Shown here piece by piece: positions 4,335 to 9,654 of a stretch of 36,641 nt of DNA. The notes under the pieces were generated by a model, which saw only the letters and a list, made by a program, of their open reading frames with translations, did no database searches and was not told the DNA's origin. The position numbers and the translations under genes are program-made. This DNA is from Verrucomicrobiota bacterium (GTDB taxonomy: Bacteria > Verrucomicrobiota > Verrucomicrobiia > Limisphaerales > Fontisphaeraceae): assembly GCA_037139415.1 (NCBI GenBank), contig JBAXGN010000067.1, forward strand, positions 1 through 36,641, given 5' to 3'. Positions within the stretch are counted from its first letter, which is position 1; each line of letters begins with the position of its first letter.

Positions 4335-5784
4335 TTATGCAAACCCATCCCCATCTACTGCTGCGGCAGGGCAATCACGGGTTTGCCCCCCCCATTTGGT
4401 CGCTTTTTGCCACGAGTCATACCAGGGTGGCGGCATGAAGCGTGGGTTTAGTACATGCCGAACCGGACCAAGACGATAGACTTCGCGGTATAGCCGCTCC
4501 TGGGCGGCGAAATACTGGTCCACCAGCGCGAGCGCGGCGGGTGTCCACTCGTTGACTTTGGGGTTGCCGATGGCGCGATCCAGTGTTTCCAGTTCCACCT
4601 TGCTGCGCCAATGCTCGATGCGCCACGTTGGTTTCACTTCCGCAGATAGCCGGGCCAATTCCACGGCGGCAGCGGGTAGCGGAACGCGCTTTCGCTCGCC
4701 CCAGAGGCTTAACCATTGCGCCCACTCCGTCGCCCGCTCCGGGGATGCGCCGAAGTAGTGTTGCGCATAGGCCTGCAAGGCGGTGTTGGCATCTTTGAAC
4801 TGACTGCTACCCAGGCCGGCCAACAGCAGCTTATTGCAGTCGTCCAGAACCCCTTCGCTGTAGGCCTGAAAACCTTCAAACCCGCGCGCCTGCAGCTCGC
4901 GCAAAGTGTTCGGTAAGCGCTTGGGTGCGATCACCGCCCCGAGGCGGCCATAGACGTCCATGTCGCGCTGATCGCCATAGCCGATATGCACAAACGCCAG
5001 TTTGCGGCATCCGACGGGCACCTCCACCTCCTGCGGGTGGATCTGGCCGTATTCGATATGCATCGTCATGGCCTTGAGCCAGCCGGGCGCTTCCTTCGCC
5101 GACCATTCGTTGAACTGACGGTGTTCCTCCGGCGTCCACCACCAGGAGCAGAACCACGGTTCAATGCCGGGATGCCGGCGCTGGGCGATGGCGTGTATGT
5201 CCTTCATCAGCCGCGCAAAGGTCAAAATCCAAGGCCGGCATTTTTCGCAGTCGCAGCCGCCGTAATCGTAGGCAAAGGCCGTGAAGGCGCTGAACTGTAT
5301 CCCCGCATCCGCAAGGTCATTGAACCAGCGTTCAAAGTTGGTGAGGATCAGTTGGCGCGCTTCCGGATTGCTCGGGCAGATCAATTGGCCGAAAATATTT
5401 TTGTTTTGGGTCGCCGCATAATGCGGGCGCAATTGGTCCAGGTACACGTGATTGGGTGTGACAATCAGGTTGAGTTTGCGCGGCCAGAAATGCCTTTTTC
5501 TTGCGGTCGAGTTGTTCCTTGGCCAGGTCCCACGCGGCATCAGAGGTGTATGGATTGCAGATGTCGGTGGTGGTGATCCAGTCGCCGTAGCGGTTGAACC
5601 CCATCCATTTCAGCTCGGCGAGATATGCCGCCATCTCGCGCGGCCCCATGGCCTCATAGGCATTGCCAAAGTGGGCTGGGCAGTAGCATTCGCGAACCGG
5701 AAACGCCGCCGACAGTGCGGTGGTAGCGCTGTATGCCAGCGGCATCAGCACCAGGCCAGCGAGGGCGGAAATAAAGTATGACAT
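4335..5784 (-). pseudogene. Frameshifted exported glycosidase-like gene (TIM-barrel/DUF4838-like)
   Basis: Two overlapping minus-strand frames together make one protein of about 480 aa. The N-terminal frame starts at the ATG at 5784 with a signal peptide (MSYFISALAGLVLM...AYS), and reads through MGPREMAAYLAELKWMGFNRYGDW to LDRKKKAFLAA. The continuation, KLNLIVTPNHVYLDQLRP, lies in the next frame and runs to the TAA at 4335. The switch falls between about 5473 and 5500, beside a run of five T and a CGCGC stretch. Removing one base restores A-A-K-L-N-L. The C-terminal part has a CxCxxC motif (C-D-C-E-K-C) and F-Q-A-Y-S-E-G-V-L-D-D, like the DUF4838 protein at 9729-12035, so a uronidase-like barrel is plausible. 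This is either a real pseudogene or a one-base sequence error. Confidence 0.65.
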
Positions 5785-6009
5785 ATTTCGCACTGGAACC
5801 GATCAACCATGGCCAGCCGCCGTAAAATTTCCAAGCAGTTTTTAGCCTCAAAATTTCACCTACGACTCGAACCGGCTACTCGCGGATCGGAAACCGACCG
5901 ACCACTTATCGAATCAGTTTAACGTTTGACCCAAGCGCGATGGTGCAATATGCTTATTTTTGTTCTAACTTGTAGGGTGGGAAATCCTGTGGATATCACG
6001 AAACAAACC

Positions 6010-7386
6010 ATGGTCAGAATGATCATCGCGCTGCTCATCCCGATTATGAGCATCACCGGTTATGCCCAAAACCAAGTGGTCGCGTGGGGGAACAACGCGA
6101 ACGGCCAAACCGATGTCCCCAATGGCTTGACCAATGTCGTAGCCATAAAAGCGGGTTACCATCATAGCCTTGCCTTATTGCGAAATGGAACCGTCGTTGC
6201 GTGGGGAAGCAACGCTTATGGCGAGCGTGCTGTTCCAGCCGACGCTACCAATGTCATTGGCCTGGCGGCAGGCACGGGGCACAGCATGGCTTTGCGCGCC
6301 GACGGCACGGTGGTTGGTTGGGGGCTCAATGGGTGGCTGCGAACCAATACTCCCCCGGATTGGACAAATATCGTCGCGATCTCAGGCAGCATATCGCACT
6401 ATCTGGCATTAAGAGCCGATGGCACATTCCTCGGAATGGGAGACGATTACCAAGGGGCGGCGAATATGCCAGCGGGAATGAGCAATGTGATTCAAGTGGC
6501 AGCGGGCGGTCATTACAGCATGGCATTAAAAGGAGACGGGGGTATTTTTGGGTGGGGGCGCCGCTTTGAATTGGAAACGAATGGTGTAATTCCAATATCG
6601 AAAGCCATCTCGGTTGACGCCAATGCAGAACGCTATATGGCCCTCTGTGCCGATAACCACGCGGTGTCGGGGCATGTGTTATACAATGAGAAAATTGCTC
6701 CAGAAAATTTTTCGAGTGATGCAGTAGGTATCGCGGCGGGATCCAGTCACGGCTTATCCATTAATAATGATCACACTGTATTCGCGTCAGGCGCCAGTCC
6801 GGTTGCTGCCCTTGATGTTCCCAGTGGATTGACCAATGTCGTCCAGGTTTCTGGGGGAGAAAACTTCAGTCTGGCACTCATAGGTGATGGGCTGCCTTTC
6901 ATCATTACTCCCATTATTCAACGCACCATAAATCTCGGCTCGACAACCTGGTTTCACGTTTCTGCGACTGGTGCGCTGCCGTTAATGTATCAATGGCGGC
7001 TAAACGGCACAAATCTACTGCATGCAACCAATGCCTTATTAAGCCTTGAGAACCTTCAGTTTTCCCAGTCGGGTTCGTATTCAGTGGAAGTCAGTAACAA
7101 ATTTGGCTTGGTGCGCAGTCCCGAGGCTATGCTAACGATTACCAGCAACTTGAACTCACCAACACTCAACTCGTTTGTGAAGTCGAACCGTCTTAACACG
7201 TTTCATTTCAGCTTTTCCACTCAACCCGGAGTCAATTATGCCGTTGAATGGAGTGACACCCTGCGTTGGACCAATCGTCCTTCATGGGAAATATTCACCA
7301 ATTTAACGGGCTCCGGTTATTCGGTTCCCGTGATTGATCACAGCGCAACGAATCGTTTCCGCGCATATCGCGTACGAATTCCATAG
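6010..7386 (+). CDS. Exported RCC1-repeat beta-propeller with Ig-like domain and C-terminal sorting-like module
   Basis: 458 aa from the ATG at 6010, or 455 from the ATG at 6019. Either puts a signal peptide first (MIIALLIPIMSITGYAQ). A longer TTG-started reading from 5926 would bury it and is rejected. Residues from about 20 to 290 are RCC1-type repeats of about 40 aa: VVAWGNNANGQTDVP, IKAGYHHSLALLRNGTVVAW, LAAGTGHSMALRADGTVVGW, VAAGGHYSMALKGDGGIFGW, and VSGGENFSLALIGDG. An Ig-like domain follows, ending in SGSYSVEVSNKFG. The last module has Y-A-V-E-W-S-D-T-L, a central W and F-R-A-Y-R-V-R-I-P at the very end, matching the gene at 3-611. RCC1 propellers are protein-interaction scaffolds; the partner is unknown. 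Several repeats are degenerate. Confidence 0.8.
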   Translation: MVRMIIALLIPIMSITGYAQNQVVAWGNNANGQTDVPNGLTNVVAIKAGYHHSLALLRNGTVVAWGSNAYGERAVPADATNVIGLAAGTGHSMALRADGTVVGWGLNGWLRTNTPPDWTNIVAISGSISHYLALRADGTFLGMGDDYQGAANMPAGMSNVIQVAAGGHYSMALKGDGGIFGWGRRFELETNGVIPISKAISVDANAERYMALCADNHAVSGHVLYNEKIAPENFSSDAVGIAAGSSHGLSINNDHTVFASGASPVAALDVPSGLTNVVQVSGGENFSLALIGDGLPFIITPIIQRTINLGSTTWFHVSATGALPLMYQWRLNGTNLLHATNALLSLENLQFSQSGSYSVEVSNKFGLVRSPEAMLTITSNLNSPTLNSFVKSNRLNTFHFSFSTQPGVNYAVEWSDTLRWTNRPSWEIFTNLTGSGYSVPVIDHSATNRFRAYRVRIP

Positions 7387-8203: not shown

Positions 8204-8319
8204 GGGCGAAGCGGAAAATTCCTCGCGATACCGCCTGATTATTTGGTCAATTTTGAGCTGATTTTCGCTATTACGTCCTGATCATCAATTAGTTAATTGT
8301 TATGGCCGCGTAATGGTGC

Positions 8320-8438
8320 TTATTTCAATTTTATCATAAAAATGAAATAATGCTGCATTTGGTGATGTTTGAATGAAATAACAAACCTCTTTATTTCAGT
8401 TCTTGCGTTAAAAATGAAATAAGGCTATTCCTTATTTC
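8320..8438. promoter_or_regulatory. Array of GAAATAA/TTATTTC half-sites upstream of the fic gene (putative operators)
   Basis: Six copies of one 7-mer occur within 119 bp: TTATTTC at 8320, 8391 and 8432, and GAAATAA at 8344, 8375 and 8416. Two pairs have the same inward layout, GAAATAA-N9-TTATTTC (8375-8397 and 8416-8438). The second pair extends to 9-bp arms, GAAATAAGG and CCTTATTTC. Start distances of 31, 41 and 41 nt are close to whole helical turns. A further inverted repeat, CAATTA-GT-TAATTG, lies at 8286-8299. The last site ends 4 nt before the GTG start at 8443, where no Shine-Dalgarno is seen. Binding by the winged-helix Fic protein itself is an inference. Confidence 0.65.
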
Positions 8439-8442
8439 CATT

Positions 8443-9654
8443 GTGAATTCAGAAAACGAGATTCAGGCTGAAGTTCGTAAGTCAGGCCGATGGGTAACGA
8501 CCTTGGAAGGCTACCGGGCTTTTCATCCCAATCCGTTACCGCCTGCGATCAATTGGTCATCGCAATTAGCTTCGGCTTTGGCGGATGCTTCGTTATTGAT
8601 TGGGCGTCTGGCTGGCGAGGGCAAGCGCCTGCCAAGTCCACACATTCTCATTCGGCCATTCATTCGCCGCGAAGCCGTGTTGTCCAGTCGCATTGAAGGT
8701 ACCCAAGCCACCTTGGGAGAATTATTGGCCGCTGAAGCCGGGGCGAGTATCAAGCGTAGCCCGGACGATTTGCGGGAGGTGGCAAACTATGTGACCGCGC
8801 TTGAGTATGGCATTGAGCGCCTTAAGACATGGCCGCTCTCATTGCGGTTGGTGCGCGAACTGCACGAGCGATTAATGACAGGTGTGCGCGGGAGCCATGC
8901 CACTCCCGGGGAGTTTCGCCGTTCACAAAATTGGATTGGAAAGCCGGGGGCGACACTTAACCAGGCGTCCTATGTGCCACCACCACCTGATGCTTTGGGT
9001 GACCAACTCGCAAATTGGGAGCGCTTCCTCCATGATCGTACCCAGCCTCCGCTCATCCATGCGGCGATGATGCATTACCAGTTTGAGGCCCTTCATCCGT
9101 TTCTGGATGGCAATGGACGGGTGGGGCGTCTGCTTATTACACTGCTGCTTTGTGAACGTGAAATGTTGCCCGCGCCGCTGCTGTATCTTTCCGCGTTTTT
9201 TGAAGCCACCCAAGACAGTTACTACAATGGGTTGAGCAGAGTGACTGAGCATGGTGACTGGGAAGGCTGGATTCAATATTTCCTCAATGGTGTGGCCCGT
9301 CAGTCGGAAGATGCTCTTAGCCGGGCTGAACGCATCAACCAACTCCTGGAGATGTGGTGCGGGTTATTGGTTGGCAAAGCAAATGCGAATGTTGCGCTTC
9401 AGATCATTGACCTGCTCGGTGCGAATCCCTTCCTCACGCCGCGCGGGGTCGAACAAAAGCTTGGGTTTGCGTACAACACGGTGATGCGCGCTATTAAACG
9501 GTTGCAGGAGCATGGCATTATCACGGTTACCACCGAAGCCAGACGTGACCGGGTCTTTTGCGCCAAAGCGTTGCTCGACATTCTTGAGGAGCCCGCTCGT
9601 CTGATACCCAGCGAGCCTTCCATCAGGGATCAGCAAAGGCAGCAAGGAATGTAA
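8443..9654 (+). CDS. Class II Fic-domain AMP-transferase with C-terminal winged helix
   Basis: 403 aa, cytoplasmic. The N-terminal Fic_N region carries the inhibitory-helix motif (S/T)xxxE(G/N) as S81-S-R-I-E85-G86, which marks an autoinhibited class II Fic protein. The catalytic loop is HPFLDGNGRVGR at 218-229, matching HPFx[D/E]GNGRxxR in full. Residues of about 315-385 look like a winged helix-turn-helix (NPFLTPRGVEQKLGFAYNTVMRAIKRLQEHGIITV). The family attaches AMP to target-protein hydroxyls; the target here is unknown. The start is the GTG at 8443, directly after the operator-like array, and the protein begins M-N-S-E-N-E-I. There is no separate antitoxin gene, as expected when inhibition is built in. 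The strongly AT-rich upstream island contrasts with its GC-rich surroundings and hints at horizontal acquisition. Confidence 0.92.
   Translation: MNSENEIQAEVRKSGRWVTTLEGYRAFHPNPLPPAINWSSQLASALADASLLIGRLAGEGKRLPSPHILIRPFIRREAVLSSRIEGTQATLGELLAAEAGASIKRSPDDLREVANYVTALEYGIERLKTWPLSLRLVRELHERLMTGVRGSHATPGEFRRSQNWIGKPGATLNQASYVPPPPDALGDQLANWERFLHDRTQPPLIHAAMMHYQFEALHPFLDGNGRVGRLLITLLLCEREMLPAPLLYLSAFFEATQDSYYNGLSRVTEHGDWEGWIQYFLNGVARQSEDALSRAERINQLLEMWCGLLVGKANANVALQIIDLLGANPFLTPRGVEQKLGFAYNTVMRAIKRLQEHGIITVTTEARRDRVFCAKALLDILEEPARLIPSEPSIRDQQRQQGM

Follow-up and report, generated by a model that had tools for sequence, protein, structure and literature searches.

A phased inverted-repeat array as the probable operator of a Sofic-like class II Fic protein in a Verrucomicrobiota bacterium

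Which protein, if any, reads the cluster of short repeats that lies directly in front of a class II Fic protein gene in the window, i.e. the whole 36,641-nucleotide stretch of Verrucomicrobiota DNA analysed here? The gene (8443..9654, + strand) begins with GTG and encodes 403 amino acids with Fic_N, Fic and C-terminal winged-helix domains. Upstream of it, the initial annotation had described six exact 7-mers spanning 119 bp, two GAAATAA-N9-TTATTTC pairs among them, with steps of 31 and 41 nt and a last arm 4 nt from the start codon, and all of this is found in the letters: TTATTTC occupies 8320-8326, 8391-8397 and 8432-8438, and GAAATAA 8344-8350, 8375-8381 and 8416-8422. Likewise, no Shine-Dalgarno sequence is visible before the GTG at 8443. 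The pairing was right for the later pairs and needs amending for the first arm, as 8320 joins 8344 in a less regular half-site pair, TTATTTC-N17-GAAATAA (8320..8350), at the distal, upstream end of the array; the GAAATAA at 8344 is without its TTATTTC partner, expected at ~8360. When read in the frame of the homologs, the core of the array consists of TGAAATA at 8374, TATTTCA at 8392, TGAAATA at 8415 and TATTTCC at 8433, i.e. a word followed by its reverse complement at +18, the word again at +41 and the reverse complement at +59. These form two putative operator pairs, TGAAATA-N11-TATTTCA (8374..8398, the same letters as GAAATAA-N9-TTATTTC) and TGAAATA-N11-TATTTCC (8415..8439), the second placed exactly 41 bp past the first and leaving 3 nt before the GTG.

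The encoded protein carries the hallmarks of its class. The Fic domain (PF02661, E 7e-22) is accompanied by a match to Fic_N, and the Fic motif HPFLDGNGR at residues 218-226 fits HxFx(D/E)GNGR, with H218, P219, D222, N224, G225 and R226 invariant in 88 sequences. An inhibitory motif, SSRIEG (residues 81-86), fits (S/T)xxxE(G/N) and lies N-terminal to the Fic motif; E85 and G86 are invariant and S81 is nearly so among the 88 homologs. In the AlphaFold2 model (pLDDT 92.7), helices 316-327, 333-340 and 344-356 together with a wing make up a C-terminal winged helix, in which 344-356 is the recognition helix and N345 sits at its N-terminal end; the Pfam matches of this region (MarR_2/HTH_24) fall under the cut-off. 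Over its full length, the model best matches the structures of a Mycobacterium marinum FIC protein (7cb8) and of Shewanella SoFic (3zcn, 3zec, 3eqx), and CbFic2 (8cil) is also matched. The assignment as a class II Fic protein with a winged helix, made earlier from the letters, thus holds on motifs, model and fold matches to 3eqx and 8cil. The PADLOC SoFic model recognizes the protein with an E-value of 1.3e-118, and the narrower NCBIfam equivalog NF046030 (SoFic) scores 170.6 bits, below its cut-off of 550. Judged by sequence and predicted fold, the window protein is a Sofic-like class II Fic protein with a putative anti-phage role. A search of viral contigs for its relatives found none, and phage records contained partial or distant relatives only. 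Elsewhere in the window, two overlapping minus-strand ORFs in different frames (4335-5793) look like a single gene split by a frameshift near 5450, through an assembly error or as a pseudogene.

Could such an array arise by chance, or through neutral expansion of repeats within an AT-rich promoter? The region is indeed an AT-rich island, as described, with 29% G+C, and this is what speaks for such an origin. Against it, GAAATAA occurs 12 times in the window where 3.5 are expected, with six of the copies inside the 119 bp, and both the array score (6 vs ≤3.5 in 20 shuffles) and the four-site score (28/28 vs ≤24 in 30 dinucleotide shuffles) exceed those of all shuffled sequences, while the spacers bear no relation to one another. 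The homologs speak against it as well. These were drawn from the same order and phylum, from other phyla and by region, and an early geometry-free half-site scan, which was noisy, was superseded by fixed-geometry scoring with controls. Exact 6-mer direct repeats at 41 bp precede 61 of 170 dereplicated homologs (~5 in shuffles), a free four-site score of at least 24 is reached by 80/170 homologs vs 4/163 control stretches farther upstream, and the fixed 18/41 geometry at ≥23/28 is present in 52/170 (31%) vs 0.12% of shuffles. Another 107 homologs, mainly from Chloroflexota and Pseudomonadota, gave 21 vs 2/106 controls. The geometry is also kept in more G+C-rich homologs that use different words. 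Chance or neutral expansion is contradicted by these counts against controls and shuffles, and we regard it as scarcely credible.

Loss of the motif upstream of orthologous fic genes had been named at the outset as evidence that would count against an operator; among homologs of at least 60% identity, 20/29 retain the array under the strict fixed geometry, and in the closest ones it runs right up to the start codon. The strict 18/41 array is absent in ~69% of 280 homologs, some of which have other geometries and some none that is visible; part of them probably owe this to mis-called starts. The spacing of the repeats appears to follow the DNA helix. Upstream of 277 homologs, 6-mer repeats at 41 bp occur in 91 (10/269 controls), at 40 bp in 44 (8 controls), at 31 bp in 41 (9 controls) and at 30 bp in 37 (14 controls), whereas periods of 35, 36, 45 and 46 bp show no clear enrichment in the same set. 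This pattern supports the helical phasing proposed earlier and fits binding sites that all face the same side of the DNA. On the upstream sequences compared, the array layout is a trait of the Fic family. The genome also encodes a remote paralog of the Fic-winged-helix type (G000:C97:9512-10576), preceded by an array of its own that is built on another word, GCGGTGAA-N11-TTCACCGC followed by GCGGCGAA-N11-ATCACCGC, 34 bp apart, and three E. coli fic genes carry several TGTCGAT/ATCGACA half-sites ≤190 bp before the start codon. A fic homolog on a Thermus brockianus plasmid (L355, upstream of 677) has a palindrome-like TATAACAAGCTCCAAGCTTGTTATA just before its start codon.

Evidence on the identity of the reader comes from the words themselves, which were called on DNA alone and differ by clade: TGAAATA, GGAAACA, CGAAAATA, CGATAATA, TAAAATA, TTTAATT, TTTCAAA and TCGACAT. 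The second base of the word varies with residue 345, the position just ahead of a conserved Thr. With Asn at this position base 2 is G in 11/12 cases and with Pro it is T in 16/16; Ala, Thr or Ser go mostly with A, and Gln mostly with C. In the first set, residue 345 ranked 1/315 protein columns for half-site base 2, and in the pooled set 1/300, with a mutual information of 1.12 bits and p 1.5e-4 when the base was simulated along a tree built from the Fic part. Twelve of the top 20 covarying columns of the pooled set fall in the winged helix, where 5.2 are expected. The tree null is somewhat lenient, given that some columns of the Fic domain obtain simulated p values about as low at other positions of the half-site, and the N345 association fails correction over all column-by-position tests and passes it for the few recognition-helix residues. 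A simple residue-to-base rule predicted 13/19 hold-out cases, barely above a constant guess of A, which is common there; it was dropped as a reliable code for this weak result and kept as a trend. Where residue 346 is Thr the hold-out gave 11/12, a restriction set post hoc, after the misses. Five Chloroflexota homologs (L288, L292, L295, L296 and L309) have CATATTG/CATATGT-like words and a residue 346 other than Thr, and the trend mostly fails in them, which suggests another helix register in this class. Taken as a whole, the word-helix covariation is good evidence that the array is read by the gene's own product.

The same covariation bears on the possibility that a different host regulator, for instance a repressor responding to stress or to phage, occupies the array and governs the Fic gene. 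The half-site is simple and AT-rich, and a second multi-copy array, of GTGAAATA, precedes an unrelated gene in the same genome. Yet the array accompanies Fic homologs in different phyla, the word varies by clade in step with the recognition helix of the Fic protein itself, and the exact pair GAAATAA-N9-TTATTTC is found by pattern search nowhere else in the 7.9-Mb genome than at the two places described. With up to one mismatch, TGAAATA-N11-TATTTCA occurs at two further places, both unrelated loci and one of them within a separate array. The spaced motif is therefore not spread over the genome, a pattern that the initial annotation had also listed as counter-evidence, and the assignment of the array to the Fic gene survives this check. 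We judge control by another regulator to be unlikely. The GTGAAATA/TATTTCAC array (L349, G000:C96 ~6200-6320) lies directly 5' of its gene, which encodes 364 amino acids with no Pfam or NCBIfam match and seemingly contains an HTH. It has a TGAAATA core in common with the Fic array, and cross-talk between the two is conceivable.

Autorepression by the Fic protein, i.e. an operator that is bound by Fic dimers and keeps the downstream gene repressed, is in our judgement highly probable. The proposal to this effect in the initial annotation is supported by the covariation, by the outcome of the two checks for counter-evidence and by the precedent of CccR, where inverted repeats of one word likewise precede a Fic gene; placement of the window repeats on the promoter is predicted. 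In the proposed mechanism, Fic dimers would grip TGAAATA/TATTTCA half-sites through their C-terminal winged helices. The w-N11-w' pair is favoured over w'-N16-w as the putative site of a single dimer, as it is also present in the arrays of the TCGACAT clade and of the remote paralog. Sites of the same orientation, 31 and 41 bp apart, would be separated by about 3 and 4 helical turns, so that bound dimers would line up on one DNA face, covering both promoter and translation start, and would prevent transcription. A tentative core promoter within the array (8403..8431, + strand) combines TTGCGT at 8403-8408, a 17-nt spacer and TATTCC at 8426-8431. It is weak and was picked by eye, and a sigma-70 consensus scan upstream of the Fic gene recognized no promoter, TTGCGT-N17-TATTCC included; the G of its TTG is conserved in 58% of arrays. 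With this promoter, the transcription start would fall near the GTG. Repression would maintain a low level of a potentially toxic AMP-transferase, and would be lifted once the protein is titrated or altered by infection, nucleotide state or oligomer state. We infer binding by the window protein, repression, cooperativity, an inducing signal and an anti-phage role, and control of the array may depend on ATP or AMPylation.

The repeats could also work in RNA, as hairpins beside the start codon governing translation, and the stretch does fold better than 200 of 200 shuffles (z -3.9). Such folding is expected of any inverted repeat, however, and hairpins would need neither one word shared by separate pairs nor direct repeats spaced by integral turns of the DNA helix; covariation with a recognition helix would be unexpected as well. 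We consider an RNA role very unlikely.

A protein that silences its own gene would matter beyond this locus. A 2025 structural paper describes as unresolved how Sofic-type proteins stay harmless before infection (PMC12249575), and self-repression, if true, may explain how toxic Sofic stays silent in uninfected cells; phage or DNA-state sensing could then act by lifting it. With a conserved operator very probably read by its own protein, Sofic silencing becomes directly testable, and the natural helix/word pairs provide a set of matched repressor-operator pairs whose code is partly readable. The chances seem to us evenly balanced for the wider proposal that Sofic-type anti-phage AMP-transferases are one-chain toxin-repressors, each preceded by its own array, which follows a shared 40/41-bp grammar and uses a word dictated by a small code in the recognition helix. 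In the open-licence literature, no description appears to exist of the grammar shared by the operators, of the specificity trend or of the connection with Sofic-type anti-phage proteins.

A close parallel is CccR of Yersinia pseudotuberculosis, a T6SS effector and FIC protein with a C-terminal HTH that acts as a dimeric autorepressor and protects AGATAATCAT-N26-ATGATAATCT in its own promoter, near the -35/-10 elements (PMC9755527). Its autorepression is proven, and the kind of system is thus already known. CccR and the window protein share an N-terminal class II FIC domain, a C-terminal HTH and inverted repeats before their own genes, but CccR has one pair with an N26 spacer whereas the window array has tandem pairs in which the arms are offset by 18 bp and the period is 41 bp. 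CccR is a remote relative, set beside the window protein by its published description. CbFic2 of Coxiella burnetii, another class II Fic protein, likewise ends in a winged helix and is reported to switch between AMPylation and deAMPylation through DNA-induced dimerisation (PMC10628234). This offers a precedent, by analogy, for a possible coupling of AMPylation to DNA binding in the window protein. In the passages concerned, CbFic2 is examined on random DNA and on host histones, an operator is not identified, and, according to the authors, SoFic had yet to be shown to bind DNA (PMC10628234). For E. coli Sofic, the structural paper finds leaky expression to be toxic and terms the regulation elusive, and a term search of it gave no hit for HTH, DNA-binding or transcription (PMC12249575). 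The SoFic/Sofic structures (3eqx and 3zcn from S. oneidensis, 9vjc from E. coli) have the domain order and fold of the window protein at ~26-30% identity, with a VIA Z of ~41 for 3zcn/3eqx, and the C-terminus of one of the E. coli Fic proteins with upstream half-sites (L352) is identical to 9vjc over the printed alignment. Autorepressors are also familiar among AbiEi-type and type II antitoxins, whose DNA-binding portion acts on inverted repeats to repress the toxin locus it belongs to; in the Fic system proposed here, toxin and repressor would share one polypeptide.
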